From: Pontibacillus sp. HMF3514
Lineage (GTDB): Bacteria > Bacillota > Bacilli > Bacillales > BH030062
Length of the DNA: 64,000 nt
Assembly (NCBI RefSeq): GCF_009858175.1
Contig: NZ_CP047393.1
Span: 3,844,001-3,908,000 of the forward strand
Direction of reading: 5' to 3'
Below, piece by piece: positions 27,954 through 45,205 of the stretch. Positions within the stretch are counted from its first letter, which is position 1. Every line of letters begins with the position of its first letter. Position numbers and translations under genes: made by a program. Below the pieces are notes generated by a model that saw only the letters and a list, made by a program, of their open reading frames with translations, had not been told where the DNA came from and did no database searches.

Positions 27954-28017
27954 TTCACCTAATCAATTGCATGATAGACAAGGGGGCAATTGGTACATTT
28001 CAAAGGAGGAATTCGTT

Positions 28018-28191
28018 ATGTTACAAACCGTTGTTGAAAAACTAGTTGAAAGTCCAGATCTTTTGAAACAAGTCCGCGAAGGAAATGCTAGCTTGGCCGG
28101 CATATCAGAAACTGAAAAGGCTGCTATCCTTGATGTATTTGAGGAAAATAGCCAAGAGAATACTGTACTTGGAATCTGCTATTGGAAATAG
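28018..28191 (+). CDS. comX: ComX pheromone precursor
   Basis: 57 residues, starting at ATG 28018 with AAAGGAGG 8 nt upstream. The leader is amphipathic (MLQTVVEKLVESPDLLKQV). The C-terminus is GICYWK with Trp as the penultimate residue, matching the rule that mature ComX is a short C-terminal peptide with a prenylated Trp near its end. The strain-specific peptide would be about the last 6-10 residues (inference). It follows comQ by 64 nt and is followed by a terminator rather than directly by comP. Confidence 0.88.
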   Translation: MLQTVVEKLVESPDLLKQVREGNASLAGISETEKAAILDVFEENSQENTVLGICYWK

Positions 28192-28262
28192 AAATGAAAA
28201 ACGTAGGCATCTGGTTAGAAGCCTCAAAAGACACATATCATAAGAACATCATAGATGAAGTG

Positions 28263-28293
28263 AAAATAGCCAGATACTACTCTGGCTATTTTT
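28263..28293 (+). terminator. Terminator between comX and comP
   Basis: AAAATAGCCAG / CTGGCTATTTT, 11 bp, 8-nt loop, T-run. It should separate the pheromone unit from the receptor unit. Confidence 0.75.
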
Positions 28294-28316
28294 GTTCTCA
28301 CAAAGCAGCCAGATCC

Positions 28317-28516
28317 AGCTCTAGCGCCCAGCAACGAAAGGACTTAGGCCCACACGACGTGGGTCAGATCGACGTTGTCACAGGACGTGACGAACTTAGT
28401 CGATCATACTTTCTCCGTACGATAAGTCAACATCAAATTGCTTCACAATTTGTGTTTCCTTTATCTTACTACGGGCTCAGTCCAGTCCTGTCGTTGCTAA
28501 ACAGGCGCGTACGCTT
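28317..28516. repeat. About 200-bp intergenic repeat-like element inside the com locus
   Basis: The ends are inverted (AGCGCCCAGCAACGA against TCGTTGCTAAACAGGCGC then GTACGCT). Inner stems include CCCAC/GTGGG and GTTGTCAC/GTGACGAAC. It is GC-richer than the com genes around it. Its AGCTCTAGCGCCC start is shared with shorter palindromes at 37175, 38701 and 43904. An open frame of 121 codons over it (28182-28547) has no ribosome binding site and is not considered a gene. I recall similar elements from many Bacillus intergenic regions. Confidence 0.6.
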
Positions 28517-28522
28517 TACTAA
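28494..28522 (+). promoter_or_regulatory. Possible comP promoter at end of the element
   Basis: TTGCTA, 17-bp spacer, TACTAA. It starts inside the right arm of the repeat-like element and lies 30 bp upstream of the comP start codon. Fit to consensus is moderate. Confidence 0.35.
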
Positions 28523-28551
28523 TAAGCATGTAAAAGAAAGGTATTGAAACC

Positions 28552-30888: not shown

Positions 30889-30904
30889 GATGGTGACTGA
30901 AATC

Positions 30905-31573
30905 ATGATACGCATTATATTAGTTGATGATCACCCTTCCGTCGGGGAAGGAACCAAATTAATGATTGAACGAGAAGAGGACATGGTGGTTACCATTGTG
31001 GAATCTGCTGGAGAGGCACTAGAGATCATAGAAAAGCAAGATTTTGATCTCATGCTTTTTGACTTACGCATGCCTGGCATGAATGGAATTGAGTTAATAA
31101 AAGAAGTACGCTCTATGGGAAAAAATGCACCCATTGTCATCTATTCAGGACATGATATTGGACCTTACTTTAATACGCTTGTCGAGGCTGGTGTATCAGG
31201 ATTTGTTAGCAAAACTGAACCTCGGCACCAGCTCCTGACATGCATTCATTGTGCACTTGAAGGAAAAGTCATTTTACCGCAATCTCTTTTCAATCAATTA
31301 CGTCGCGTTGAAGTGCAAGCTCCTGAGGCTGAGGCGCAAGAACAAGAGGAAATGAAGGATGTTTCCATTAATTCAAAAGAACAAAAAATCTTGAAAGAGG
31401 TCGCCAAAGGTAAAAGTAATAAAGAAATTGCTCAGGACTTTTACCAAAGTCAACGTACGATTGAGTACAACCTGACGGAGATCTTCAAAAAGCTGAATGT
31501 AAAGTCAAGAGCCGAAGCTGTGCTGAAATCTAAGCAGTGGGGCATTATTGCTGATGATGTAGAAGAGGAGTAA
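30905..31573 (+). CDS. comA: ComA response regulator
   Basis: 222 residues. Receiver domain with DDH at 8-10, D53 (LMLFDLRMPGMNG), and KTE in the Lys region (SKTEPRHQL), which matches the ComA-specific SKTE. The C-terminal LuxR-type HTH (about 155-215) includes NKEIAQDF and TIEYNLTEIFKKLNV. Start chosen at ATG 30905 with GGTGA 8 nt upstream; ATG 30890 adds five residues and is possible. In B. subtilis ComA activates surfactin, degQ and other targets; targets here are unknown, but secreted glycan-active genes lie on both sides. Confidence 0.92.
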   Translation: MIRIILVDDHPSVGEGTKLMIEREEDMVVTIVESAGEALEIIEKQDFDLMLFDLRMPGMNGIELIKEVRSMGKNAPIVIYSGHDIGPYFNTLVEAGVSGFVSKTEPRHQLLTCIHCALEGKVILPQSLFNQLRRVEVQAPEAEAQEQEEMKDVSINSKEQKILKEVAKGKSNKEIAQDFYQSQRTIEYNLTEIFKKLNVKSRAEAVLKSKQWGIIADDVEEE

Positions 31574-31664: not shown

Positions 31665-31708
31665 AATAAGGTGTTGCCCCCAACCTGGGAGCAGCACCTT
31701 ATTGTTTA
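31665..31708. terminator. Terminator between convergent comA and GH18-like gene
   Basis: AATAAGGTG / CACCTTATT stem with A- and T-rich flanks. Confidence 0.7.
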
Positions 31709-33436
31709 TTCTTTAGCTTCTTTCCAATATTCATAGGAGTGGATCATGTACCCTTCATACGAAGATTCATCTTGCAGGTTGGTTTCCATAGCATCAATCT
31801 GCTCTCTCATCTTCGCTTTTCCTTCTTCTGCAAATGTGATTTTATTGATAAGGCTTGGGCGCATTTCTAATGAAAGTACAATTGGTTTACCAAGGTTATT
31901 AGCGTGTTTAACTTCCTCTTCCGTCATATATAAAATCCCGCCCGGACCTTCTGCATAATCACGGAATGCCATAACTGAAGTGTGATCCATTTGCTTCATG
32001 ACCCATTTATTAAATGGAAGATCTGGATTGCCTGGTGTCTTTCGATCATCCCACCACATGGCAAGGTCCATACTCACTTCTAAATCTGTACCTTCTTTTG
32101 ACTCTTTTACAAAGAGTTTGATGTTATCCATCCACTCTTTTAGCTTTTCATCATTGTGACGATTCCATCCATTTACCGTATATGGCTCAACATCAATATG
32201 AATTCCATCAAACTTTTGGGCGCTAGTTGCTTCACCATTATATTTTTTCACGTAATTCACAAGTTTCATAATGCGTGGTTGAAGGTCTTCCAGCGCCCAT
32301 TTAGGATGTCCTCCCATAGCATGAACTTCAATACCTGCCTCTTGAGCTTTTTCCATGAAGTCCTGATATTTGGAGAATGGCTGCCTTAAATCCAAACGTG
32401 TATATAACATGTTAAGGTCTTTCTCTTTAGCGAATTGAATAATTTGGTCAGGCTCTGAAATCAAGTTGCTCGCGTGCCATATATAGGTTCCTCTTTTTTG
32501 TTCGTCTTGAGGTGATTCCGATGACTCTTCTTTATCTTCTTTCGGAGAAGTTTCGACCTCTTCTTCAGGTAGTGGGCTTAATTGCAACCAACTCTGAAAA
32601 TCATCAATAGCTGTACCTACATAAGAAGATTGAGTGACATGTTTATCTAAAACATCCAGGTGCATATACATATCATCTACACCCTCGCCATGGAATGAAA
32701 CAACATCATTACCTGAGTTTTCTAAGCTAACTCCAATCATAATGTCTTTATTATATTCATTAGCAGCTTTTAATTCGTCCTCAGTTAGTGCAACTACACC
32801 ATTTGGCCCTTCCATTGTATCTCGATAAGCTAGAACTGCAGTTTGATCAAATTGGCGAATAAGCCATGTACTAAATGGCATATTAGATTCTCCAGGTGTT
32901 TCGATACTATCTAGCCAAAAGGGCATTGCCACGCTAACTTTTAATGAGCTATTTAGTTTTGCTTCTTCATATGCTGCTTGCATATTATTTTTCCATTGTT
33001 TTAAAATTGCCGTCTTGTTTTCGGTCCACGCTTGTAGTTTATAAGGTAAAACTTTAAATATAACGCCCGTCATTTTTGCGTTCTCAGCTACCGAATTATT
33101 ATAGTCCTTTACCCAATAGGCAAAACTTAGACTTTCGTAGTTGTTCTCCTTTAAGCCCCAGGAAGGCTTACCGCCAAAAGCATACACGTCGATTCCAGCT
33201 TCATTTGCTTTACGGATAAATGTTTCATAATAGTCGTATGTTTTTTGTCTATTAATCTTTAAGTATATCTGATTAAGCTCCCGTTTCTTGCTTAGCTGCA
33301 ATATGTCTTCAGTTTCAGTGTTTAAATCAGCTTGCTTCACCCATAACGCATGTTGTTTATTGCCTGGATGAGAAAACCCCGTTAAAAGCATTAGAATACT
33401 ACATAAAATCCCAAAGATTAGTGTTTTTCTATACAT
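31706..33436 (-). CDS. Secreted two-domain GH18-like protein, domain 1 degenerate (paralogue 2)
   Basis: 576 residues with a signal peptide (MYRKTLIFGILCSILMLL). Start at ATG 33436 has GGAGG 5 nt upstream; the frame is open to 33571. Two homologous barrels (about 30-285 and 315-576) are joined by an acidic Glu/Ser/Lys/Pro linker. Domain 2 has GIHIDVEPYTVNGW, SMDLAMWW and MAFRDYAEG. In domain 1 the same strands read GVIFKVLPYKLQAW and SVAMPFW, so the DxE pair and the Asp of the other strand are gone, while LAYRDTMEG is kept. Domain 1 is thus probably a binding module derived from a hydrolase. Confidence 0.72.
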   Translation of the reverse strand: MYRKTLIFGILCSILMLLTGFSHPGNKQHALWVKQADLNTETEDILQLSKKRELNQIYLKINRQKTYDYYETFIRKANEAGIDVYAFGGKPSWGLKENNYESLSFAYWVKDYNNSVAENAKMTGVIFKVLPYKLQAWTENKTAILKQWKNNMQAAYEEAKLNSSLKVSVAMPFWLDSIETPGESNMPFSTWLIRQFDQTAVLAYRDTMEGPNGVVALTEDELKAANEYNKDIMIGVSLENSGNDVVSFHGEGVDDMYMHLDVLDKHVTQSSYVGTAIDDFQSWLQLSPLPEEEVETSPKEDKEESSESPQDEQKRGTYIWHASNLISEPDQIIQFAKEKDLNMLYTRLDLRQPFSKYQDFMEKAQEAGIEVHAMGGHPKWALEDLQPRIMKLVNYVKKYNGEATSAQKFDGIHIDVEPYTVNGWNRHNDEKLKEWMDNIKLFVKESKEGTDLEVSMDLAMWWDDRKTPGNPDLPFNKWVMKQMDHTSVMAFRDYAEGPGGILYMTEEEVKHANNLGKPIVLSLEMRPSLINKITFAEEGKAKMREQIDAMETNLQDESSYEGYMIHSYEYWKEAKE

Positions 33437-33800
33437 ACGTTCCTCCATCTTTTCCATTTTAGAGTAAGCTAACCAAGCAAGACTTATCTTCGAAAATACC
33501 ACCGAAACAAGCAACAAACCTATGTAAACCGTAGCTTTATAGAAGAACGATCCCAAGTATTCCCTAATCATCCGAAGAGGATACCGAAAAAAGAATTCGC
33601 TGTTCCGAAATATGGTTTTCGATGTAAAGCCTTCATTGCCGTGTTAACTTTATAAACGTACTCAATAGATAACCCATCTTCAAATTAACTGTTTCTTTTA
33701 TGAAATTCAAGGAGAATTTTTCAAAAAAGTCAAAAAATTGAAGTTTGAGTACATTCGTCATTGAAATCGACATTCTATATGTCTGAGAAAGGAGGCACCT
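33437..33800. other. Divergent intergenic region, GH18-like / polysaccharide cluster
   Basis: 364 bp between divergent starts. It should hold both promoters. No convincing sigma-A pair, inverted repeat or small open frame with a ribosome binding site was found; the right end is the AAAGGAGG of the next gene. Confidence 0.5.
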
Positions 33801-35990
33801 ATTATTAAATACAAGGGTCTGTTCCTTTTTACCTTGTTTTTAATCGCCTTGGGGATCTTTAGTTATATGCGTGATGCAGCTTCCCCCGACATTGAAACGT
33901 TAAAGCTAAAAGATGGAACACAGATGAAATTTCGAACAAAAGATGAAAAGATCCAAGTCTATCAAAACCAATCCTGGTCCCCCTTCTTTTCACAAGGCGT
34001 AAATGTAGGTGCCTCTCTTCCTGGACATTATCCTGGAGAGCTACCTATTAAGAAAGAAGATTATATGAGGTGGTTCAAACAGATTCACGAAATGGGGGCT
34101 AATACCATTCGGATCTATACCATTCACGATCCTGTCTTTTACGAAGCACTTGTCGAGTTCAACCAAAATCATGGAGAAGATCCCCTCTATTTCATGCAAG
34201 GGGTTTGGTCGCCAGTAAATGAACTTGATGAAACTCAAAATGCACATGCTTCAAAAGTGACAAATGCTTTTAAAAAGGAATTAAAAAATGCGGTTGGAGC
34301 TATATACGGAGACATCACGCTTCCGGAATCACACGGAAATGCAAGCGGTGAATATACCGTAAATGCTGCACCCTACTTACTTGCTTGGCATATTGGTACA
34401 GAATGGGATCCGAAGATGGTGAAGAAAACAAACGAAAAAAATAATGGTAAATCCTTTAAAGGGAACCATTTTCAATCTAAATCAGAGGCTTCTTCTTTTG
34501 AAAATTGGTTAGCAGAACTCATGAATTATACAGCAGCGTTAGAGAAGAAGCGCGGTTGGGAACACCCAATGACCTTTACAAACTGGGTAACCACCGACCC
34601 TCTGAAACATCCAAAAGAACCATTTCCAATGGAAGATGCCATTGAAGTGGATGCAACACAAATTACAACAAACCAATGGGAAGCCGGTTATTTTGCTTCC
34701 TATCACGTTTACCCTTATTATCCAGATTTTTTCCGTTATTCAGATCAGTACAAACAAGTAAAAGGTCCGAACGGAAAATCAAACAACTATCGAGGTTATC
34801 TCCGGGATTTGAAGGATTACCATAACGACCTCCCTATTATGGTTACTGAATTCGGAGTTCCTTCCTCTCTTGGTTCCTCTCATATTGGAGAGAATGAGTG
34901 GAATCAGGGAGGACATACAGAACAACAGCAAGGTGAAATTAACAAAAAGTTATTCAACAACATCTATCAAGAAGATTATGCAGGAGCCATTTTATTCTCT
35001 TGGCAAGACGAATGGTTCAAAAAAACATGGAACACTATGTTCTATGACAATCCTGACCGAAGAGCTTACTGGTATAATGCTTTATCAAGTGAACAATCCT
35101 TTGGTGTCTTAGGGATGTATCCAAGTAAAACCGATGACATCCAAATTGATGGCAAAACAGACGATTGGGAAAATGTAGAAGATAAAGAAAAACTAGATAT
35201 GAAACGGAAAGGTTGGGAAGATATTTGGGTCACGCATGATGAAGGTTATTTATACATTCACGGCACCCTTTCTCAGCCCTATCAACCAGAGCAACAAACG
35301 CTCTATCTTGGAATCGATTCCTTACCCGGTGGAAACCGACAAGGTAAACCATTAGGGGATAAGAAATTAGATAAAGGCTTAGAAAGCATAATTCAATTAA
35401 GCAAAAAAGAAAAAAGTTTCATAAAAGTAGCTTCTAATTATGATTTCCATCAACGCCTTTATGGAGAAAGCTATGGCATGAAAGATGTTAAGCAGCAACA
35501 CTCGAAGGAAAACTCTGGAATTTTCAAACCATGGAAGCTAGCACTCAGTTTAAAAACTGATCCGCCGCATTCCAAGTTCTCTGTTCCTTTCGATGACGTT
35601 ACAGTTCAACTGAATAAGGGCAGCACAGATCCAGAGAGCAAAACCTTTAATTCTCATATACTCTGGCAAGCCAAGGATAAATCGATAGAGTTAAAAATCC
35701 CTTGGGCAATGTTAGGATTTTCTGACCCAAGTAAACGAAAGGCTATCAGCTATGAGGATGTTACAGAAAATAACTCATTTTCAACAGAAAAATCTAAAGG
35801 AATACGAATCCTACCATGGATCGTTGAACAGAACAAAGAAACCGTAAAAGGTTTAGGAAAACAAAATCCTGTTCCCGTTTCAGAGTTACCAATCTATCAA
35901 TGGGAAACCTGGGATAAAGTAGATTACTACGAACATCTAAAGAGCAGTTATTACACCATGAAGAAAGCCTTTCAATCTACAAATAAATAG
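33801..35990 (+). CDS. Membrane-anchored GH-A clan glycosidase with C-terminal carbohydrate-binding-like domain; apparent ATT start
   Basis: About 729 residues. An N-terminal signal anchor (LFLFTLFLIALGIFSY) precedes a TIM barrel with clan GH-A features: GANTIRIYTIHDP, acid/base Glu in HIGTEWDP and nucleophile Glu in MVTEFGVPSS, closest in style to GH2/GH5. A beta-rich C-terminal part (about 455-725, from IQIDGKTDDWENV) resembles family-9 type carbohydrate-binding domains. No ATG, GTG or well-placed TTG starts it: AAAGGAGG is followed 5-8 nt later by ATTATT, so ATT 33801 or 33804 is the likely initiator. TTG 33834 lacks a ribosome binding site and would cut the anchor. First gene of the polysaccharide cluster. 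Confidence 0.75.
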   Translation: MIKYKGLFLFTLFLIALGIFSYMRDAASPDIETLKLKDGTQMKFRTKDEKIQVYQNQSWSPFFSQGVNVGASLPGHYPGELPIKKEDYMRWFKQIHEMGANTIRIYTIHDPVFYEALVEFNQNHGEDPLYFMQGVWSPVNELDETQNAHASKVTNAFKKELKNAVGAIYGDITLPESHGNASGEYTVNAAPYLLAWHIGTEWDPKMVKKTNEKNNGKSFKGNHFQSKSEASSFENWLAELMNYTAALEKKRGWEHPMTFTNWVTTDPLKHPKEPFPMEDAIEVDATQITTNQWEAGYFASYHVYPYYPDFFRYSDQYKQVKGPNGKSNNYRGYLRDLKDYHNDLPIMVTEFGVPSSLGSSHIGENEWNQGGHTEQQQGEINKKLFNNIYQEDYAGAILFSWQDEWFKKTWNTMFYDNPDRRAYWYNALSSEQSFGVLGMYPSKTDDIQIDGKTDDWENVEDKEKLDMKRKGWEDIWVTHDEGYLYIHGTLSQPYQPEQQTLYLGIDSLPGGNRQGKPLGDKKLDKGLESIIQLSKKEKSFIKVASNYDFHQRLYGESYGMKDVKQQHSKENSGIFKPWKLALSLKTDPPHSKFSVPFDDVTVQLNKGSTDPESKTFNSHILWQAKDKSIELKIPWAMLGFSDPSKRKAISYEDVTENNSFSTEKSKGIRILPWIVEQNKETVKGLGKQNPVPVSELPIYQWETWDKVDYYEHLKSSYYTMKKAFQSTNK

Positions 35991-36000
35991 GAGGGATTCA

Positions 36001-37161
36001 ATGTTTGTCAATTTAGATATGGCCTACTGGGCTATATACGGACTCCTTGCAATCTTAGGAATAAATGTTTTTATTATCCTAGCCATGAAGATCCGAAAAA
36101 AACAAACCCAAAAGAAAACGCAAAAATGTGTACAGCAGTTTCAGGAGTATCTGGATACAATTCAGTCTGATCTTAAGCAAAAAGATCGACTCCCTTTACC
36201 AGACAAACCCTTAAATAAGTTTGAAAAGCAAGTACTACAGCAGGTTTTATTCGATTGGATACACCATTATTCAGGCGAAAAACAAACAAAGCTTGAAATA
36301 TTATGTAAAGATCTTGGGTTAGTTGAGCTAAATCTTAAACGACTGAAAAGCCTATCCCATAAAACACAGGTGGATGCAGCTTACAACCTTGGAGTTATGA
36401 GAGCGCCAGAAGCTACTGATCCTTTATTTCAGTTACTTTACCGAAACAAAAGAGACTCTACAATGTTCATCATAGCTCGATCTATTGCCCAGACATCCGA
36501 TCAACCAGCAAAAGTTAAAGACATGATTATTCATTTATCAGAGGATAACCACAATAATTACGCATTAATCACTGATATCTCACAAGAATCATCACTAGAT
36601 TTAAGAGTCATCTATACGCAGTTATTAAAAGAATCACGACCTGTATTAACGAAAGTTGCCCTACTCGGTTTGATGGAAGAATCTACACCTGATTTACACA
36701 GCCAAGTCCTCCCTTTCATCACATCAGAGGATAAAGAAGTACGTGAGCTAACGGTTCAATTATTAATCTATTCTGGTGCGTGCTCAGCCAGTGAAATTCA
36801 AAAGTTCATTCGCTTTAAAGATTGGGAAATTCGCTCCTTTATCGCTGAATGGATAGGAGATGCGAAAAAGACTGAATACACCAGTCTCCTTGAAGAAGGA
36901 CTTAAAGACAAAAATTGGACAGTAGCCCGTTCTAGTGCTCGCAGTCTACTAAAACTAGGAGAATCAGGGTTCGAGATGCTATGTAAAGTTGCTCAAACAA
37001 ATCAAGCTGGTGCTGATGTCGCATTGGAATGTCTCCATGAAGAGCTTAGCATCCAAGCTTCAAAAGCTGAACAAATGAAACAAAGTTCCGATTACGATCA
37101 TAAATTGTATATCTTTAAACAACACTTTGGCGAAGATCAACAACTTACTCCAGCTATGTAA
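36001..37161 (+). CDS. Membrane-anchored HEAT-repeat protein
   Basis: 386 residues. One N-terminal transmembrane helix (about 8-30), a basic Lys/Gln stretch, then alpha-helical HEAT-type repeats (VDAAYNLGVMRAPEATDPL; VRELTVQLLIYSGA; VARSSARSLLKLGESG). No catalytic motif. Such proteins are scaffolds; here it lies 10 nt after the glycosidase and just before the synthase gene, so it may hold the synthase complex together at the membrane (inference). GGAGGG precedes ATG 36001. Confidence 0.8.
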   Translation: MFVNLDMAYWAIYGLLAILGINVFIILAMKIRKKQTQKKTQKCVQQFQEYLDTIQSDLKQKDRLPLPDKPLNKFEKQVLQQVLFDWIHHYSGEKQTKLEILCKDLGLVELNLKRLKSLSHKTQVDAAYNLGVMRAPEATDPLFQLLYRNKRDSTMFIIARSIAQTSDQPAKVKDMIIHLSEDNHNNYALITDISQESSLDLRVIYTQLLKESRPVLTKVALLGLMEESTPDLHSQVLPFITSEDKEVRELTVQLLIYSGACSASEIQKFIRFKDWEIRSFIAEWIGDAKKTEYTSLLEEGLKDKNWTVARSSARSLLKLGESGFEMLCKVAQTNQAGADVALECLHEELSIQASKAEQMKQSSDYDHKLYIFKQHFGEDQQLTPAM

Positions 37162-37174
37162 GATCAAAAACCTA

Positions 37175-37211
37175 AGCGCCCGTATTGGGAATATATGAAT
37201 CCCTGGGCGCT
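37175..37211. repeat. Short palindrome of the AGCGCCC/GGGCGCT family (copy 1)
   Basis: AGCGCCC pairs with GGGCGCT around TTGGGA/TCCCT arms, followed by TAGAGCTA. It lies between the HEAT and synthase genes and lacks a T-tail, so it is not a plain terminator. Confidence 0.55.
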
Positions 37212-37277
37212 AGAGCTAAAAGTGGCCCTCTAGCCACAAACATTACACTATGGTAAACAAAAGGAAAGGAGTCCGAT

Positions 37278-38696
37278 ATGAGGGAAATATTACTAGGGTA
37301 TGGCTTATTCGCCATGTTCTATGTCTTCACGATAAACTCGATTTATTTAACGATCATGCTGTTTTCCTTTAAACGTATATTCAGCATCATCAAACGCAAA
37401 TCCTATACCAATATTGAAAAATTATCAGATTCCAAGAATGTACCGCCTATCTCCATCTTGGTACCTGCTTACAATGAAGAATTAACCATTGAAGAAAGCT
37501 TAAAATCGTTACTCGCTCTAAACTATCCAACCTATGAGGTTATTGTCGTCAATGATGGCTCAAGCGATGACACAATAAACGTTCTGAGAAAGCAATTTAA
37601 CTTACAATACCTGCCCCCTTCCAAAAAAGAAGGTGTTATTAAAACAGGTAATGTCAAAGGCATCTATTATAACCCGGTCTATCCTAATCTTTATATTATT
37701 GATAAAGAAAATGGCGGTAAGGCAGATTCATTAAATGCTGGAATCAACCACTCTAACTATCCATTAATCTCTTCAATTGATGCCGACTCCTTGTTAGAAA
37801 AAGATGCACTTATTCGAATAGCAAGCATGTATATGGAAAGTCCAGAAGAAACGGTAGGAATTGGTGGAAACGTCCGCATCGCAAATGGGTGCAAGATTGA
37901 AAACGGAGTAGTGAAAAACGTTCGCTTACCGAAAAAACTACTACCGATGATGCAAACCGTAGAATATTTAAGAGCCTTTATCGGTGGACGAATTGGTTGG
38001 AGCCAAATGAACGGTCTTATTATTGTATCCGGCGCATTTGGCGTATTCCGAAAAGATAAAGTTGTAGAAGTTGGCGGCTACCGTGGTGGTTATCCTGGAG
38101 AAGATATGAACATTATTATTAAACTCCACCGCCATATGTTACACCATAAGCTTCCTTACCGAATTGATTTCTGTCCAGATGCAGTTTGCTGGACGCAAGC
38201 ACCAGATTCGTTCAAGATCCTCGGCAGTCAAAGAAAGCGTTGGGGCCGCGGAAACCTGAAGAACATGATTGAAGAAGGAATTTATATGTTTATGAATCCT
38301 AAATATAAAATTATGGGCTGGCTTACACTCCCATACAACATTTTGTTTGAAACGCTAAGTCCTTTCTTCAAAATTACGGGTCTTCTATCCATTATCGGTT
38401 ATACACTTTTAGACATGACGGCCTGGCCTATCATAGCGACTTTCATGCTATTGAATGTACTATACGGAACATTACTTGGAGCGGGTTCATTACTCTTAGA
38501 AGAAATGGCATTCAACCGCTATCCGAGAATTCGAGATTTCTTCAAGATGCTCTTGTACACCATTCTAATGTTCTTTGGATACCGTCAACTTGGAATTCTA
38601 TGGAGATTCCTCGGTCAAATTGATTTCTTCCGTAAAAACAACACATGGGGCACCATGACAAGAACGAGCTTTAATGAAGATAGCAAATCAGCATAA
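37278..38696 (+). CDS. Processive family-2 glycosyltransferase (polysaccharide synthase)
   Basis: 472 residues. One N-terminal helix, a cytoplasmic GT-A domain (about 55-330) with ISILVPAYNEE, VVNDGSSDD, DADS, GEDMNI and QRKRW at 318-322, then several C-terminal helices (about 340-455). The DxD, ED and Q(R/Q)xRW set marks processive synthases such as hyaluronan, cellulose and poly-GlcNAc synthases, which polymerise and export at once. The downstream nucleotide-sugar genes point to GlcNAc and/or an N-acetyl-hexosaminuronic acid as substrate (inference). AAGGAG precedes ATG 37278. Confidence 0.9.
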   Translation: MREILLGYGLFAMFYVFTINSIYLTIMLFSFKRIFSIIKRKSYTNIEKLSDSKNVPPISILVPAYNEELTIEESLKSLLALNYPTYEVIVVNDGSSDDTINVLRKQFNLQYLPPSKKEGVIKTGNVKGIYYNPVYPNLYIIDKENGGKADSLNAGINHSNYPLISSIDADSLLEKDALIRIASMYMESPEETVGIGGNVRIANGCKIENGVVKNVRLPKKLLPMMQTVEYLRAFIGGRIGWSQMNGLIIVSGAFGVFRKDKVVEVGGYRGGYPGEDMNIIIKLHRHMLHHKLPYRIDFCPDAVCWTQAPDSFKILGSQRKRWGRGNLKNMIEEGIYMFMNPKYKIMGWLTLPYNILFETLSPFFKITGLLSIIGYTLLDMTAWPIIATFMLLNVLYGTLLGAGSLLLEEMAFNRYPRIRDFFKMLLYTILMFFGYRQLGILWRFLGQIDFFRKNNTWGTMTRTSFNEDSKSA

Positions 38697-38700
38697 GATA

Positions 38701-38733
38701 AGCTCTTGCGCCCTTTTGCTGGGCGCAGGAGCT
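38701..38733. repeat. Short palindrome (copy 2), AGCTCTTGCGCCC / GGGCGCAGGAGCT
   Basis: 13-bp arms with one G-T pair and a 7-nt loop, four bases after the synthase stop. TAGACATC follows, as after copy 3 at 43906. No strong T-run. Confidence 0.6.
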
Positions 38734-38789
38734 AGACATCTTTAACCTTAAGTACAATCACAAAATCACGATAAGGAGGGTTTCTAAAT

Positions 38790-39254
38790 ATGGACATGAC
38801 CTACAGTGTTGGATCTCGCATCCTTAAGACATTTCAACAGTTTCTCCAATATTATGAAGCTAGTAGTCTGGCTTGCGGCGTTGTCATTATAAAAGCCGAC
38901 TTGGGAGATGAGCAGTTGAAGTTACTTGAGAACCATATGCACAACCAGAAACCAGAAGTTGGCGCACAATTCAGCTATGATGCATCAGAAGGATTGTTAG
39001 GGATTCTTTTAGATGATTGTCACCTTGATTCCACCCATGATTACTCTTTCTATGTGAAGGAGTTTCTGGAACAAAATGGTCAGTTAAAAGGCCCTCTACT
39101 AATCGGGAGCTTTCCGGAAAATGGGCATCACGCTGAACAAATGATGTTTTCTATGATATGGATCCAAATGATCAGCGAAAGTGAAGCCAAGGAGATCAAC
39201 ATTTACAATCACAGACAGAACACTGAAGTAAATACATTCCACCCTTATCGTTGA
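38790..39254 (+). CDS. Unknown 154-aa protein in polysaccharide cluster
   Basis: 154 residues, soluble, no signal peptide, acidic. I do not recognise it. The alternation (SLACGVVIIKADLGDEQLKLL; LLGILLDDCHLD) suggests an alpha/beta fold and faintly recalls a degenerate GGDEF or nucleotidyl-cyclase-like domain, which would make it a candidate cytoplasmic control subunit for the synthase; this is speculative. AAGGAGGG lies 8 nt before ATG 38790. It lies between synthase and dehydrogenase genes in the same orientation. Confidence 0.75.
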   Translation: MDMTYSVGSRILKTFQQFLQYYEASSLACGVVIIKADLGDEQLKLLENHMHNQKPEVGAQFSYDASEGLLGILLDDCHLDSTHDYSFYVKEFLEQNGQLKGPLLIGSFPENGHHAEQMMFSMIWIQMISESEAKEINIYNHRQNTEVNTFHPYR

Positions 39255-39328
39255 TTGGAAAAATAGAAAGATTCGAGATTTCTAAAGAACCATAAAACCT
39301 TAATTCTGAGTAAAGAGAGGGATTTATA

Positions 39329-40681
39329 ATGAAATATTTTAACCAATTGGCTCAAAAAATTAAAACGAAGCAAGCAAACGTTGGTGTTGTGGGGATGGGC
39401 TATGTTGGCCTGCCACTTGCTGTAGAAATGGCTAAAACAGGTTTCAACGTTTGCGGTATTGATTTATCAGAAGACAAGATCGAACAATTAAAGCAAGGTC
39501 AATCTTACATTTCAGATATTAGCAATGAAGATGTGCAACGTGTTCTAGACTCTTCTAACTTCTATCCAACTACTGATTACAGTGTTGTAAGTGAACTTGA
39601 TGCAATCAGCATCTGTGTTCCTACACCATTAAGCGAAAACCAAGACCCAGACACATCTTATATCACAAGCGTTATGGAAAAAATGAAGCCTCATTTGAAA
39701 AAAGGTGTGGTCATCACGCTTGAAAGTACCACTTACCCTGGTACAACAGAAGAGTTAATTCTTCGTGAATTGAACCGCGCAGACTACCAGGTAGGCGAAG
39801 ACTTCTTCCTTTGCTACTCACCTGAACGCGTTGATCCGGGTAACGGACAATTCAACACACACAACATGCCTAAGGTAATGGGCGGAGCTACAGAAGCCTG
39901 CACAGACTTAGGTGTAATGCTATACAGCAATTACATCGAGCAGGTGGTACCTGTTTCTTCCCCTAAAGTAGCAGAGATGTCTAAACTATTAGAAAACACA
40001 TTCCGTAGCATTAACATTGCTTTCATTAACGAAATCGCTATGATGTGTGAGCGTATGGATATTGATGTTTGGGAAGTTATTGATGCAGCAGCAACAAAAC
40101 CATTTGGATTCATGAAATTCCAACCAGGCCCTGGTATCGGAGGACACTGCATTCCACTTGATCCAATGTATCTTTCTTGGAAAGCAAAAGGCTTCCGCTT
40201 CTACAGTAAATTTATCGATCTAGCTCAATCCATCAATAATAATATGCCAGACGTAATCGTAAACAAATCAGCACAAGTCTTAAATATTTACGGTCGTTCC
40301 ATCAACAGTTCCAAAATCCTAATTTTAGGAATGGCCTATAAACCAAATATCAGCGATCTTCGTGAGTCCCCTGGTCTTTATCTATATGAGCTATTTAAAG
40401 AAAGCGGAGCGAATGTTGATTACTGCGATCCGCACGCTGATAGCTTTATCGATGATGACGGTAATACCGTCCAATCTGTTCCTTACAACAAGGATATTTT
40501 AAAGCAGTATGATTGCATGGTGCTTGTAACGAACCACGCAGCATTTGATTATAATGAAATCGCTAATCTTGGCGTACCAATCGTTGATACAAGAAACGCA
40601 TTCAAAGATTATGATTATCCTCATATTCACAAATTTGGTACAACGGCAAAAATCGCTAGAGAAAACTCTATCGCTCTATAA
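39329..40681 (+). CDS. UDP-N-acetylhexosamine 6-dehydrogenase (WbpA/WecC type)
   Basis: 450 residues. N-terminal NAD domain with VGMGYVGLPLAVEMA, central helix and UDP-binding C-terminal domain. The catalytic Cys274 lies in GPGIGGHCIPLDP followed by YLSWKAK; this GHCIPxDPxYLxWKA form is typical of UDP-GlcNAc/ManNAc dehydrogenases rather than UDP-glucose dehydrogenases (KGFGGxCFPKD). It oxidises C6 twice with NAD+ to the uronic acid. With glmS and the GlmU-like gene downstream, UDP-GlcNAcA is the expected product. GAGAGGG precedes ATG 39329. Confidence 0.88.
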   Translation: MKYFNQLAQKIKTKQANVGVVGMGYVGLPLAVEMAKTGFNVCGIDLSEDKIEQLKQGQSYISDISNEDVQRVLDSSNFYPTTDYSVVSELDAISICVPTPLSENQDPDTSYITSVMEKMKPHLKKGVVITLESTTYPGTTEELILRELNRADYQVGEDFFLCYSPERVDPGNGQFNTHNMPKVMGGATEACTDLGVMLYSNYIEQVVPVSSPKVAEMSKLLENTFRSINIAFINEIAMMCERMDIDVWEVIDAAATKPFGFMKFQPGPGIGGHCIPLDPMYLSWKAKGFRFYSKFIDLAQSINNNMPDVIVNKSAQVLNIYGRSINSSKILILGMAYKPNISDLRESPGLYLYELFKESGANVDYCDPHADSFIDDDGNTVQSVPYNKDILKQYDCMVLVTNHAAFDYNEIANLGVPIVDTRNAFKDYDYPHIHKFGTTAKIARENSIAL

Positions 40682-40691
40682 GTAAAATCAT

Positions 40692-40726
40692 AACCAAGAA
40701 GGCGGGATTCTCCCCCTTCTTAGGTT
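40692..40726 (+). other. Hairpin upstream of glmS
   Basis: AACCAAGAAGG pairs with CCTTCTTAGGTT with one bulge. The following sequence is not a T-run, so it is either a weak terminator or a processing/stability element. No glmS ribozyme is recognisable in this 125-bp gap. Confidence 0.5.
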
Positions 40727-40806
40727 TATCTAAAACTGAACTTATTATTCTTATATTATCTGAATAAACAAAACTATTACATCGAATGAAAAAGGAGTAT
40801 GACATT

Positions 40807-42639
40807 ATGTGCGGAATCATGGGATATATCGGAACACAAGAATCTCAAAACATCATTATGAACGGACTTAAAAAGCTAGAATATCGTGGGTATGATTCAG
40901 TTGGCGTTGCTGTAAACAATGGTGACTCCATCCAAACGAACAAAGCTGAAGGTCGCTTTGAAAACCTACAAAGCTTATTAAACGAATCACCGCTTCAAGG
41001 TACGGTTGGAATCGGTCACACACGCTGGGCTACTCACGGACGTCCTTCCGATGAAAACTCTCACCCTCACACAGATACGAATAAAGATTTTGCTATCGTA
41101 CACAATGGCATCATCGAAAACTATCTAGAAGTGAAAAAAGAATTAGAAGATCAAGGTGTTGTTTTTCAATCTGAGACAGACTCAGAAGTTGTCGCTCACC
41201 TACTCACTTCTCTATACGACGGTGATGTGATTTCTACAATTAAAAAGGCTGTACAAAGATTAGAAGGCGCTTATGCTCTAGGAATTGTAACAGAACATGA
41301 TCCTGACAAACTTTTCGCTATTCGTCATGATAGCCCACTAATCGTAGGAAAAGGTGAAGGCGAAAACCTTATTAGCTCGGACATCCCAGCTGTATTGGAG
41401 CACACTCGTGATGTGTACATCCTTGAAGACGAGGAATTGGCTATCCTTACAGAAGACGAAGTTAAACTCTTAGATATTCAAACGGATGAACCAGTAAACC
41501 GTGAGATCTTCCGTGTTGATTGGGATATGGAACAAGCTGAGAAGAACGGTTATGACCACTTCATGCTTAAAGAAATCCATGAACAACCTAAAGCTCTTCA
41601 AACTACTATGGCTGGCCGTGTAGATGCTGAGAATCATCAAGTACAATTTGAAGAACTAAACTGGACTCCAGAGCAATTAAATAAATGGAATAAAATTTAT
41701 ATTGTAGCTTGCGGAACAGCTTACCACGCTGGATTAATCGGAAAAGGTGTTATTGAAGAGCTTACTCGCACACCAGTAGAAGTAGAAATCGCTTCTGAAT
41801 TCCGTTACCGCCGTCCTATCGTTGATGAAAATACACTTGTTATGGTGGTAAGTCAATCTGGTGAAACAGCTGACACACTAGCTGCATTACGCGAAAGCCA
41901 GAAGAAAGGTGCCAACGTCCTTGCGATCACAAACGTTGTAGGTAGCTCTATTGCACGTGAAGCAAATGAAGTCATTCTAACAATGGCAGGACCAGAAATT
42001 GCTGTAGCATCAACAAAAGCTTATACAACACAAGTTTTATCCTTCTATATGGTTGGTATCTATATGGCTCAAATCAAAGAAACAATCTCTTCTCAAGAGC
42101 AGAAAAACCTTATTGATACGTTAGTACAAACACCTGATCAAATGGAAGGTATTTTAGAGCATGTGAAAGGCCTTCAGTGGTATGCAGAGTCTATTCAGAA
42201 CTCCAATCACGTATTCTTCATTGGCCGTGGCATGGATTACGCAGTATCCTTAGAAGGTTCTCTAAAACTAAAGGAAATCTCTTATATCCACTCTGAAGCA
42301 TATGCAGCTGGTGAACTTAAGCACGGTACCCTTGCTCTTATTGAAGAAGGTACCCCAGTGATTGCACTTAACACACAAGAAGAACTTTACGACAAAATGC
42401 TAGGAAATATCAAAGAGCTAAAAGCACGTGGCGCACAAGTGCTAGGACTAGCAATGGAAGGAAACTTAAACATTTGGCAATATGTAGACGAAACGTGCTA
42501 CATCCCAGCAACACAGTCCCTATTTACGCCACTTCTATCCGTGGTTCCATTACAGCTAATCTCTTATTACACAGCTCTTGGATTAGGCAATGACGTAGAC
42601 AAGCCAAGAAACTTAGCTAAAAGTGTAACAGTTGAATAA
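40807..42639 (+). CDS. glmS: Glucosamine-6-phosphate synthase
   Basis: 610 residues. Starts MCGIMGYIG so that Cys2 becomes the N-terminal nucleophile of the glutaminase domain (1-240, HTRWATHGRPSDENSHPH); two SIS isomerase domains follow (SQSGETADTL; GRGMDYAVSLEG) and the C-terminal KSVTVE is canonical. Reaction: fructose-6-P + glutamine to glucosamine-6-P. The start at 40807 has AAAGGAG; the upstream ATG at 40786 is wrong because it would bury the Cys. It lies inside the polysaccharide cluster and lacks the usual leader ribozyme, suggesting a dedicated copy. Confidence 0.93.
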   Translation: MCGIMGYIGTQESQNIIMNGLKKLEYRGYDSVGVAVNNGDSIQTNKAEGRFENLQSLLNESPLQGTVGIGHTRWATHGRPSDENSHPHTDTNKDFAIVHNGIIENYLEVKKELEDQGVVFQSETDSEVVAHLLTSLYDGDVISTIKKAVQRLEGAYALGIVTEHDPDKLFAIRHDSPLIVGKGEGENLISSDIPAVLEHTRDVYILEDEELAILTEDEVKLLDIQTDEPVNREIFRVDWDMEQAEKNGYDHFMLKEIHEQPKALQTTMAGRVDAENHQVQFEELNWTPEQLNKWNKIYIVACGTAYHAGLIGKGVIEELTRTPVEVEIASEFRYRRPIVDENTLVMVVSQSGETADTLAALRESQKKGANVLAITNVVGSSIAREANEVILTMAGPEIAVASTKAYTTQVLSFYMVGIYMAQIKETISSQEQKNLIDTLVQTPDQMEGILEHVKGLQWYAESIQNSNHVFFIGRGMDYAVSLEGSLKLKEISYIHSEAYAAGELKHGTLALIEEGTPVIALNTQEELYDKMLGNIKELKARGAQVLGLAMEGNLNIWQYVDETCYIPATQSLFTPLLSVVPLQLISYYTALGLGNDVDKPRNLAKSVTVE

Positions 42640-42659
42640 AAGCTAAACTGAGTATTCTT

Positions 42660-42691
42660 CATAAGCAATATCTAGTGAGATATTGCTTATG
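42660..42691 (+). other. Perfect 14-bp hairpin between glmS and 50-aa gene
   Basis: CATAAGCAATATCT and its exact complement around an AGTG loop, without a T-run. Probably an intercistronic stability or processing element. Confidence 0.6.
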
Positions 42692-42738
42692 TCGTAATCC
42701 TCAAGCAAAACTATAAATCTATTAAGGTGGTGCGGATC

Positions 42739-42891
42739 ATGAATAATACAAAACTAGATGAACGAGGACTTCAAACAATCTTACAGCATATCAATGATAA
42801 AGTAAGCGGGAACAATATCATCGAAGAGGACCAAATCATCACAGAAATGATCCAAAGCTTACAACCTTTCTATCAACAAAATACGAACTAA
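42739..42891 (+). CDS. 50-aa acidic peptide in polysaccharide cluster
   Basis: ATG 42739 follows AAGGTGG by about 8 nt. The 50 residues are soluble and helix-prone (LDERGLQTILQHINDKV; EEDQIITEMIQSLQPFY). No membrane segment or signal. It lies between glmS and the GlmU-like gene, same strand, 27 nt before the next start. Not recognised; could be a small regulatory partner of one of the two enzymes. Confidence 0.65.
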   Translation: MNNTKLDERGLQTILQHINDKVSGNNIIEEDQIITEMIQSLQPFYQQNTN

Positions 42892-42918
42892 AGCTCGAAG
42901 GATAAAGGAGGATTTCTT

Positions 42919-43899
42919 ATGCACTCCACATATGCAGTTGTACTAGCAGCTGGTAAAGGCACTCGAATGAAGTCAGATTTACCGAAAGTTCTGCACCCTG
43001 TATGCGGAAAACCTATGGTTGAGCATATTACAGATCATTTAAAGAACTTAAACACGAACGAGATTGTAACCGTTGTTGGCCATAAAAAAGAAATGATTCA
43101 AGAACAACTTGGCCAATCCGTTAAATACGCTGTACAAGAAGAACAATTAGGAACAGCGCATGCGGTTAAAATGAGCGAAGAGCTTCTTGGTGATAAAGAA
43201 GGTACTACTCTAATCATCACAGGCGATACACCACTTATCACAGAAAAGACGCTAGATTATTTATTAAAACACCATCACCAGACAAATGCAGCAGGTACAA
43301 TTTTAACCATGCTTCCTGAAGATCCTTCTGGTTACGGACGCATTGTTCGAAATGCTTCAGGAAATGTGAAACGCATTGTCGAACAAAAAGATGCAACCGA
43401 AGATGAAAAAGAAATACAAGAAGTGAATACTGGGATTTTCTGCTTTGATAATCAGCTACTTTTCTCTGCTCTACAAGAAGTAGACTCAAATAATAATCAA
43501 AGTGAATACTATCTTCCAGATGTTATCGAGATCCTTCAGAACAAACAACACACCATCTCTGCATCCGTTATGGAAGATGTTGATGAAGGACTTGGCATCA
43601 ATGATCGTATTCAGTTATCCAAAGCTGAACAGATTATGCAACAACGAATCCTAGAAACGCATATGAAGAATGGCGTTACGATTGTAGACCCAAAGACAAC
43701 CTTCATTGAAGCAGATGTTGTAATTGGAAGAGACACTACGATTGAACCACGCACTCATCTACGTGGACAAACCCGTATTGGGAAGCATTGTGTCATTGGA
43801 CCTGATGTTGACTTACTTGATTATGATGTAAAAGATCAAATGAAGATTCACAATTTCTCTATGACTAATGACGTTTGTAGCATCCCACTCGGATCATAA
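42919..43899 (+). CDS. UDP-GlcNAc pyrophosphorylase, GlmU without acetyltransferase domain
   Basis: 326 residues against about 456 for GlmU. The uridylyltransferase domain is intact (VVLAAGKGTRMKSDLPKVLH; EEQLGTAHAV; ITGDTPLI; GYGRIVR; EVNTGIFCFD). Only the first turns of the left-handed beta-helix remain (about 255-300, VVIGRDTTIEPRTHLRG), then the sequence diverges and stops, so the acetyl-CoA-binding part is missing. It should make UDP-GlcNAc from GlcNAc-1-P but not acetylate GlcN-1-P. A house-keeping GlmU is expected elsewhere. AAAGGAGG precedes ATG 42919. Confidence 0.88.
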   Translation: MHSTYAVVLAAGKGTRMKSDLPKVLHPVCGKPMVEHITDHLKNLNTNEIVTVVGHKKEMIQEQLGQSVKYAVQEEQLGTAHAVKMSEELLGDKEGTTLIITGDTPLITEKTLDYLLKHHHQTNAAGTILTMLPEDPSGYGRIVRNASGNVKRIVEQKDATEDEKEIQEVNTGIFCFDNQLLFSALQEVDSNNNQSEYYLPDVIEILQNKQHTISASVMEDVDEGLGINDRIQLSKAEQIMQQRILETHMKNGVTIVDPKTTFIEADVVIGRDTTIEPRTHLRGQTRIGKHCVIGPDVDLLDYDVKDQMKIHNFSMTNDVCSIPLGS

Positions 43900-43905
43900 G
43901 AAAAG

Positions 43906-43921
43906 CTCCAGCGAGCTGGAG
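43906..43921. repeat. Short palindrome (copy 3), CTCCAGC / GCTGGAG
   Basis: 7-bp arms directly after the GlmU-like stop, preceded by AG as in AGCTCC and followed by ATAGACATC like copy 2 at 38701. Confidence 0.5.
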
Positions 43922-43970
43922 ATAGACATCTAAGAGCTAAAACTTTCTTACTCATAAAAGGGAGATCTAT

Positions 43971-44885
43971 ATGAATTCCATCAAGAAAATCATCAAAAGA
44001 CCAAACATTTTAGTAATTGTCGTTGTTGTTTATATATTGATTGGGGCGATTAGTATACTTCATAATCCAGATCAGACAAATGATCAAGTAAAAGCAACTT
44101 GGATTTGGGATGAGGAAAAGATCGCAAAACAACCTGAAGAAATCGTTTCGTTTGCTAATGAACAAGACGTGAACTTAATTTACGTTCACGTGAGCTCGAA
44201 ACAATTTTCCGTCCAGGATTATCGTTCCTTTATTCAAAAAGCTAGTCAAAAAGATATTCAAGTTTATGCTCTTGGTGGAGACCCATATTGGGCGCTCACC
44301 TCTAAACAAAAGGATTTAACAAACTTTGTTTCAAAGATAAAAAACTATAATCAAATGGTTGAACAAAACGAACAATTCCAGGGAATTCATGTAGACATTG
44401 AGCCATACCTCCTCCCTTCTTGGAAGGAAGATAAAGAGTCGGTTATGGAACAATGGATGATGAATTCTGTACACCTTATTGAAGAAGCAAAACAAGACAC
44501 AAACCTTACAGTCAGCGGTGATTTTCCTTTTTGGATTCATAAGTTGAATGTTCCTGGCAAGTCCATGAGCCTAAGTCAGTGGATGCTAAAACATTATGAT
44601 TCAATGACTCTTATGGCTTACCGCAATTATGCAGAAGGAAATAATGGAATCAGCCAAATTGCAACCCCTATTGTGAAAGAGGCCGACAAACAAGACAAAT
44701 CTGTGGTAATTGGGGTAAACATCATTGATACAGATGAAGGAAAGCATACTACCTTTTACAGCACTGAACCTGGGCACATGAGTCAGGAGCTAAAACAACT
44801 GAGAAATTCCTTTAAGAATAACAGAGCATTTTCAGGAATTGCAGTCCATGATTATGCTCATTGGAAGAAAAAACAGTCTAGTTAA
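43971..44885 (+). CDS. Membrane-anchored GH18-like TIM-barrel protein, paralogue 3
   Basis: 304 residues. N-terminal anchor (ILVIVVVVYILIGAISIL), then one barrel with GIHVDIEPYLLPSW, SGDFPFWIHK and MAYRNYAEGNNGI, all key acidic residues kept. YALGGDPYWAL is shared with the other paralogues. Last gene of the rightward cluster; probably acts on the polymer made by the upstream synthase, for length control or release, or anchors it (inference). GGGAG lies 7 nt before ATG 43971. Confidence 0.72.
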   Translation: MNSIKKIIKRPNILVIVVVVYILIGAISILHNPDQTNDQVKATWIWDEEKIAKQPEEIVSFANEQDVNLIYVHVSSKQFSVQDYRSFIQKASQKDIQVYALGGDPYWALTSKQKDLTNFVSKIKNYNQMVEQNEQFQGIHVDIEPYLLPSWKEDKESVMEQWMMNSVHLIEEAKQDTNLTVSGDFPFWIHKLNVPGKSMSLSQWMLKHYDSMTLMAYRNYAEGNNGISQIATPIVKEADKQDKSVVIGVNIIDTDEGKHTTFYSTEPGHMSQELKQLRNSFKNNRAFSGIAVHDYAHWKKKQSS

Positions 44886-45205
44886 GAGATATGGAAGAAG
44901 CACAGAGTATCCTCTGTGCTTCTTCGTTTATGTAAAGACCTTAAATGATAGGGAAAACAAGGAAATAAAAATAGGTTATAACATACATAAACCAGAATTG
45001 ACCTTCATCACCTAGTCTATATATCCTATTTTTTTTAAAAAATCTACCATCGAAATCCTCTCTTTTTATATTTTTTCACAAAGCAAAGTATTTCATCCAT
45101 AATTATCTCCCTCGATAACGCCCCCTTTTCCCAAACAAAAGAGGTAGGAAAATCCTTTATTTTAGCCTAATATGACATTAAATCTATTAAAGGAGGAATA
45201 TTTTT
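44886..45205. other. Intergenic region with cluster terminator and protease leader
   Basis: A perfect 14-bp stem GAAGAAGCACAGAG / CTCTGTGCTTCTTC (44894-44925) followed by GTTTA ends the cluster. A possible sigma-A promoter for the protease is TTGACC (44998) with TATATC (45020), 16-bp spacing, leaving a leader of about 175 nt. AAAGGAGGA at 45190 serves the protease. Nothing else seen. Confidence 0.5.

Follow-up and report, generated by a model that had tools for sequence, protein, structure and literature searches.

A conserved gene cluster of Pontibacillus proposed to specify an amino-sugar exopolysaccharide next to comQXPA quorum-sensing genes

The DNA analyzed here, called the window, is a 64,000-nucleotide stretch of the genome of the halophilic bacterium Pontibacillus sp. 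HMF3514, which consists of a single 3.98-Mb contig (NZ_CP047393.1, positions 3,844,001 to 3,908,000). Between 33.8 and 44.9 kb, the window carries nine rightward, non-overlapping open reading frames (ORFs) encoding a GH-A glycosidase, a HEAT-repeat protein, a GT2 synthase, a protein of 154 amino acids (aa), a nucleotide-sugar dehydrogenase, GlmS, a 50-aa peptide, a shortened GlmU and a GH18-like protein. Comparison with relatives confirmed that this gene cluster is real and conserved as one unit. We propose that it probably represents an undescribed synthase-dependent exopolysaccharide system, which would use UDP-N-acetylglucosamine (UDP-GlcNAc) and a C6-oxidised N-acetylhexosaminuronic acid (HexNAcA) to make a polymer and which would be linked to quorum sensing in Bacillaceae.

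Conservation of the cluster among relatives

Pfam and NCBIfam searches supported the GT2, HEAT, nucleotide-sugar dehydrogenase, GlmS and GlmU assignments, the last being cut after the pyrophosphorylase domain; genes 1, 4, 7 and 9 had no match over cut-off in either database. A GH-A profile search among named genomes matched at least 592 stretches, at least 563 of them relatives, and the best 80 gave 78 loci whose gene content was scored by tblastn with the window proteins. This sample gathers the loci closest by GH-A and says little about remote relatives. The GH-A, HEAT and GT2 genes were found together in all 78 loci, accompanied by the dehydrogenase in 66, a GH18-like gene in 69, glmS in 36, the 154-aa domain in 34 and glmU in 25. 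The single rightward cluster of nine genes reported in the initial annotation was recovered, and its members did not belong to separate units in the relatives.

The commonest order was GHA-HEAT-GT2-REC-DH-GH18 (REC, receiver-family protein; DH, dehydrogenase), bare or with additions. It recurs in Pontibacillus, Halobacillus, Gracilibacillus, Salibacterium, Brevibacillus, Paenibacillus, Cohnella and other genera. The nearest relative is P. marinus (87% identity for GH-A and 91-99% for the remaining operon genes); outside this species, GH-A identity was ~47-58% where the gene order recurs. Most of the 78 loci come from Paenibacillaceae-type genera, and the unit is not restricted to Bacillaceae. 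In 11 loci (L043, L046-L048, L053, L056, L058, L059, L065, L067 and L070) the order was HEAT-GT2-(REC)-GHA, the dehydrogenase was absent and a called glmS stood in front in 9. In a sample of 299 genomes of the order, the GH-A family was present in 107 (39 of 116 genera), mostly as frames of ~1000-1100 aa.

Neither the whole cluster nor the HEAT/GH-A/GT2 arrangement, which had been noted as unfamiliar from pga/ica, eps, bcs and has loci, was turned up by searches of open PubMed Central (PMC) papers; PMC12419801 and PMC3482391 place HEAT repeats in unrelated settings. Identity of the whole cluster with a known locus was rejected, since neither a curated synthase or deacetylase nor a hyaluronan signature scored over cut-off.

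Synthase, precursor genes and the candidate polymer

The GT2 polysaccharide synthase candidate (37278-38696, plus strand) was recognized by Pfam, in agreement with its first description as a synthase-type protein. It carries the motifs DG93, DAD168, ED275 and QRKRW318, which we take to have their usual functional meaning in GT2 enzymes, and two hydrophobic segments predicted by hydropathy at residues 4-22 and 377-395. The nearest NCBIfam model was PgaC/IcaA (TIGR03937, 143.3 bits, below the cut-off of 422). The HEAT-repeat protein encoded just upstream (36001-37161, plus strand; Pfam HEAT_2, 50.2 bits) has a single N-terminal hydrophobic segment at residues 11-29 by the same measure.

Three genes would supply precursors. 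The dehydrogenase (39329-40681, plus strand) scored 419.8 bits against TIGR03026 (cut-off 189.8). Among more specific NCBIfam models, those for UDP-N-acetylmannosamine (UDP-ManNAc) dehydrogenases gave 247-249 bits and TviB 205, all below the equivalog cut-offs, compared to 164 bits (cut-off 670) and 157 bits (cut-off 700) for the UDP-glucose 6-dehydrogenase models AglM and TuaD. Cap5O led the PDB search with 228 bits versus 124 for a UDP-glucose dehydrogenase. By these scores the enzyme is closer to N-acetylhexosamine (HexNAc)-type than to UDP-glucose-type enzymes, which supports its original designation as a UDP-HexNAc dehydrogenase. The glmS gene (40786-42639, plus strand; NCBIfam glmS, 803 bits, cut-off 418) and the shortened glmU (42919-43899, plus strand) are second copies: another glmS, 47% identical to the operon copy, lies at G000:C1:191185, and a longer glmU elsewhere in the genome has a 466-aa frame and 53% identity. 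The operon GlmU covers positions 1-314 of the 447-452 of the NCBIfam model; it was rightly described as a pyrophosphorylase half and has no acetyltransferase, with the correction that a stub of the left-handed helix follows the domain.

In relatives the precursor set can be larger. A phosphoglucosamine-mutase family member is present in 12 loci, and all three tested passed the glmM cut-off; glmS, glmU and glmM occur together in 7 of the 78 loci (L054, L064, L071, L073, L077, L081 and L088), and L042 carries a complete GlmU. Because some relatives add glmM or a full-length glmU in this way, a UDP-GlcNAc-derived precursor is well supported. As judged from these gene families, UDP-GlcNAc supply is the most secure part of the proposed chemistry, and the identity of the acid, N-acetylglucosaminuronate (GlcNAcA) or N-acetylmannosaminuronate (ManNAcA), is less so.

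One alternative to a free exopolysaccharide is a wall-bound ManNAcA polymer of the teichuronic-acid or secondary wall polymer type, in which MnaA encoded elsewhere would feed UDP-ManNAc to the dehydrogenase. The top matches of the dehydrogenase are indeed UDP-ManNAc dehydrogenases, and the genome has one UDP-GlcNAc 2-epimerase gene, outside the cluster (G000:C1:3564825-3565835). However, Pfam detected no priming transferase, flippase or ligase in the ten ORFs between 33834 and 46411, and the recruitment of glmS, glmU and glmM points to UDP-GlcNAc itself. We consider this alternative unlikely.

The relation between synthase and dehydrogenase was assessed in a GT2 tree containing 74 of the 78 loci and 12 sister sequences. 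The 63 dehydrogenase-bearing loci grouped together with support 96/93, those lacking the gene (11 loci) formed a second group (94/73) and the sister sequences a third (100/100). Because the GT2 clades split with dehydrogenase presence, in a single change, synthase and dehydrogenase appear to travel together. The clade lacking the dehydrogenase probably makes a different polymer. This distribution (63 of 63 tree rows in the clade of the nearest relatives, none of 11 in the other) speaks against a homopolymer of GlcNAc, PNAG-like (poly-GlcNAc) or chitin-like, in which case the dehydrogenase would belong to a different pathway. Such a product, somewhat less probable again than the wall polymer, would fit the closeness of the synthase to PgaC/IcaA and the retention of HEAT-GT2-GH-A in the 11 loci without dehydrogenase, most with glmS. 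A hyaluronan-like polymer made with a UDP-glucose dehydrogenase is very improbable, as the general analogy of a GT2 gene beside precursor genes is outweighed by the higher scores of the dehydrogenase with UDP-ManNAc than with UDP-glucose models and structures.

The preferred UDP-GlcNAc/HexNAcA system was also compared with known loci. With pga/ica it has in common an amino-sugar precursor and a synthase for which PgaC/IcaA is the nearest curated model; it differs in that this synthase is far from the cut-off (143 vs 422 bits) and in the added dehydrogenase, HEAT, GH-A and receiver proteins. No Pfam polysaccharide deacetylase family (PgaB/IcaB) was found in the ten ORFs between 33834 and 46411. 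In has hyaluronan loci, a GT2 gene is likewise accompanied by precursor genes including a dehydrogenase; here, however, the dehydrogenase scores as HexNAc-type, and glmS, HEAT, GH-A and GH18-like genes are present. As a GT2 gene with precursor genes the cluster is comparable to both, but the features tested for the two types were not found. Matches to the XrtG-associated GT2 family (TIGR03111, 132.4 bits) and, for the C-terminal part of the GH-A protein, to Firmicu-CTERM (TIGR04145, a weak 18 bits) were below their cut-offs of 364 and 50.

The 154-aa protein and its receiver-protein family

The fourth ORF (38790-39254, plus strand) had been listed as an unknown protein. It still has no family match, but it is not a protein of its own kind: alignment, Pfam analysis of relatives and a model of the P. 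yanchengensis relative identify it as the N-terminal domain of a family of ~268-280-aa proteins that end in a receiver domain (74-80 bits in the three scanned). A protein of this family lies directly 3' of the GT2 gene in 68 of the 78 loci (in P. marinus, the short form). The window copy and that of P. marinus lack the receiver, which the other six aligned Bacillaceae rows retain; judging from this alignment, its absence in the window is a recent domain loss. At this place in the window (39194-39329), 74 nucleotides are left before the next gene. Among 41 aligned family members 39 have the receiver. Its phosphosite is Glu in 35 of them, and the four with Asp all come from Brevibacillus-labelled genomes; the count leaves out the two receiver-less rows, whose tails align there.

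We read the N-terminal domain as a probable decayed GGDEF domain. For the P. yanchengensis relative, AlphaFold gave a model (pLDDT confidence score 91, pTM global score 0.59) with the N-domain element order alpha-beta-alpha-beta-beta-alpha-beta-alpha-beta, which we take to fit a shortened GGDEF fold. A second argument comes from a sample of 20 further long-type GH-A loci chosen from different families of the order. HEAT, GT2 and GH-A genes were together in 12 of them, and in 8 of these 12 a 531-541-aa protein, similar over its full length to a Pontibacillus GGDEF-receiver protein, is encoded just before HEAT; the two scanned by Pfam gave 152 and 159 bits for GGDEF. These eight loci (L131-L136, L138 and L141) form a sister cassette with the order GGDEF-receiver protein, HEAT, GT2, long GH-A, small receiver and large kinase-type protein. 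The last has 816-976 aa, and the L131 copy, the only one scanned, is a hybrid kinase. As read from its genes, the sister cassette is a signalling module built around the synthase. Other forms were also seen: L143 has a partial GGDEF with a receiver (30 bits), in L144 both GGDEF and receiver are found but the frames are split, and the proteins of L147 and L149 (307 and 271 aa) contain a receiver as their sole recognisable domain. Thirdly, the profile of the ~270-aa family aligned collinearly through GGDEF and receiver with a score of 179.6, compared to 162.0 for the receiver only, and above all of two sets of 60 permutations (maxima 175.7 and 176.1).

A serious contender, with a chance we put somewhat short of even, is that the 154-aa domain represents an ordinary adaptor with no relation to GGDEF and that a cyclic-dinucleotide link is absent. 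The domain had no PDB match and no consistent Pfam match, and its alignment showed no GGDEF signature; hhalign gave 5.8% and 3.0% against GGDEF alone, and 0.2% when the remaining receiver proteins of the sister cassette were the target. Identification as GGDEF by sequence alone was rejected on these Pfam, PDB and hhalign results. With the receiver-protein model, nearly all of the 50 Foldseek rows listed were receiver proteins, which says nothing about the fold of the N-domain. A GGDEF origin was nonetheless kept because of the modelled element order, the GGDEF-receiver protein within the sister-cassette operon and the permutation result, which speak against a plain adaptor. The host genome has 9 GGDEF matches over cut-off.

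In Bacillus subtilis, YdaK is a degenerate GGDEF protein. According to PMC7064775, it serves as the operon's own cyclic di-GMP receptor in ydaJKLMN, a putative exopolysaccharide operon. The present cluster resembles ydaJKLMN as a putative Bacillales exopolysaccharide operon that may encode a second-messenger-type regulator of its own; it differs in having no GGDEF domain recognized by Pfam, other partner genes and a receiver domain.

Glycosidases, quorum-sensing genes and the proposed mechanism

The first gene of the operon (33801-35990, plus strand) encodes a protein with an N-terminal membrane segment, a predicted GH-A barrel (AlphaFold, pLDDT 90.8) and a beta-rich C-terminal part. The best 50 Foldseek rows, all with probability 1.00 and 8-14% identity, were enzymes of GH157, of GH2 type and of a few further GH-A kinds. 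Residues E190 and E339 were invariant in 40 aligned rows and are presumably the catalytic Glu pair. The modelled beta/alpha barrel and these two Glu residues are the features by which the protein qualifies as a predicted member of the GH-A clan; profile searches gave no match in Pfam (E 0.1) or PDB (E 0.01) and none over cut-off in NCBIfam. Examined by eye, the gene appears to start with ATT (33801-33806) in the window, as in P. marinus, and with ATC in three other Pontibacillus. A GGAGG-type site (AGGAGG in the window) precedes each of the compared 5' ends (window, L036, L037, L068 and L075) by 5-11 nucleotides, and no in-frame ATG, GTG or TTG was found at that spacing. These rare start codons may throttle translation.

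The last operon gene (43971-44885, plus strand) encodes a protein with an N-terminal hydrophobic segment (residues 13-31) and a VDIEP motif. The D-x-E-P motif is shared with the sole PDB relative, 10yv (E 6e-17), titled 'Putative GH97 from Cellulomonas fimi'. As the resemblance consists of this motif and Pfam GH18 matched none of the three such genes of the window, we call the protein GH18-like only. The two other genes lie upstream, and their products are 29-32% identical to that of the last operon gene. One, divergent from the operon (31706-33571, minus strand), encodes a tandem two-domain protein of 621 aa whose halves match the operon protein with E 3e-50 and 1e-41; it was present in 7 of 7 operon loci (L023-L029). 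The other (25730-26605, plus strand; 291-aa frame, 32% identity over 263 aa, E 1e-48) has a match at the corresponding place in P. marinus. The window thus holds three GH18-like genes with four domains.

Between these two genes lies a complete comQXPA locus (27027-31573), so that the unit reaches further upstream than the 33801-44885 given initially, which had missed it along with both GH18-like genes. It consists of a comQ-like isoprenyl transferase gene (27027-27953; 308 aa; Pfam polyprenyl_synt, 74.1 bits, cut-off 27; located before comX), comX (28018-28191; 57-aa pheromone precursor preceded by the ribosome site AAAGGAGG; Pfam ComX, 90.5 bits, cut-off 25, on 28021-28191), a comP-like histidine kinase gene (28552-30888; 778 aa; HisKA_3 and HATPase_c, ten hydrophobic segments by simple hydropathy) and a comA-like response regulator gene (30890-31573; Pfam receiver and GerE/LuxR helix-turn-helix), adjacent and in order on the plus strand. 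An Rfam Bacillaceae-1 RNA lies antisense between comX and comP (28349-28415, minus strand, 75.6 bits, gathering threshold 35). What sets this comQXPA locus apart is that it adjoins a proposed polysaccharide operon.

The linkage was recurrent. In each of the seven Bacillaceae loci whose flank is long enough (L036, L037, L057, L068, L072, L075 and L080), comQ, a ComX-like peptide with a near-terminal Trp and the kinase occur in order, together with the regulator; an eighth, L061, starts too near the operon to be counted. In the order sample, ComX was found in 43 of the 299 genomes. GH-A scored above 1000 bits in 11 genomes, and ComX was within 10 kb in 10 of these and on a different contig in G189 (places compared by eye); no other genome of the sample had GH-A and ComX within 10 kb on one contig. 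The main text of the comQXPA census PMC4008528 is without the terms 'polysaccharide', 'glycos' and 'Pontibacillus', and PMC8389477, in its relevant part, names comX/K in another Pontibacillus and does not mention this cluster.

Two features of the operon borders were also recorded. A terminator-like hairpin with a 14-bp stem (44894-44925, plus strand) lies 8 nucleotides past the last stop codon; 14 such sites were found in the whole scanned stretch versus 8.3 expected. The 50-aa ORF between glmS and glmU (42739-42891, plus strand; 54 aa if started at GTG 42727) was seen only in Pontibacillus: in 4 of the 7 operon loci L023-L029 and in 3 of the 78 best GH-A-recovered loci, with 94% identity in P. 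marinus and 42-48% in some other Pontibacillus.

Combined, these data suggest the following scheme. The extra GlmS and half GlmU, with GlmM in some relatives, would raise UDP-GlcNAc, and the dehydrogenase would form a UDP-aminouronate, GlcNAcA or ManNAcA. The membrane GT2 enzyme, from its family, would polymerise the chain and probably extrude it, with the strictly linked HEAT protein as a possible membrane partner or scaffold. Outside the cell, the anchored GH-A enzyme and the GH18-like proteins may cut or remodel the chain. In the cytoplasm, the protein combining a decayed GGDEF-like domain with a Glu-phosphosite receiver may tune the synthase, the window copy being without the receiver. In Bacillaceae, the adjacent ComX system would likely control operon expression.

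Several observations weigh against this scheme. The GT2 protein is far under every curated NCBIfam synthase cut-off listed; therefore its processivity and its sugar are not deducible from the family. The dehydrogenase split on the GT2 tree is one unreplicated event. Whole-protein Foldseek TM-scores (structural similarity) for the GH-A protein were low (at most 0.36 by query, at most 0.57 by target). The long GH-A can also stand without its partners, since 8 of the 20 further loci have neither HEAT nor a membrane GT2 beside it, and among six second Pontibacillus loci HEAT and GT2 were present in 4 and missing in 2, one of these at a contig end. No comQ or comP-cluster gene was found in the available flank of the other 70 loci, so that quorum linkage stands outside the operon core. 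Finally, ComA boxes of the B. subtilis consensus were not enriched (7 found vs 14 expected); being fewer than chance, they were rejected as support for ComA control.

A more specific version is possible but doubtful: in the Bacillales GH-A/HEAT/GT2 machines, a diguanylate-cyclase-receiver protein, still intact in the sister cassette, would have decayed into an allosteric synthase subunit made of a dead GGDEF and a Glu-locked pseudo-receiver, under direct ComX control in Bacillaceae, for a new HexNAc/HexNAcA polymer. If the general proposal is true, a widespread exopolysaccharide system would exist in halophilic Bacillaceae as well as in Paenibacillus, Brevibacillus and Cohnella, and its GH-A glycosidase would be one without a sequence match in Pfam or the PDB or, at cut-off, in NCBIfam. 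The series from GGDEF-receiver through partial GGDEF-receiver to an unrecognisable domain with a Glu-phosphosite receiver would make the decay of enzymes into synthase regulators directly testable, and the comQXPA junction provides a concrete candidate target of ComX signalling outside B. subtilis.

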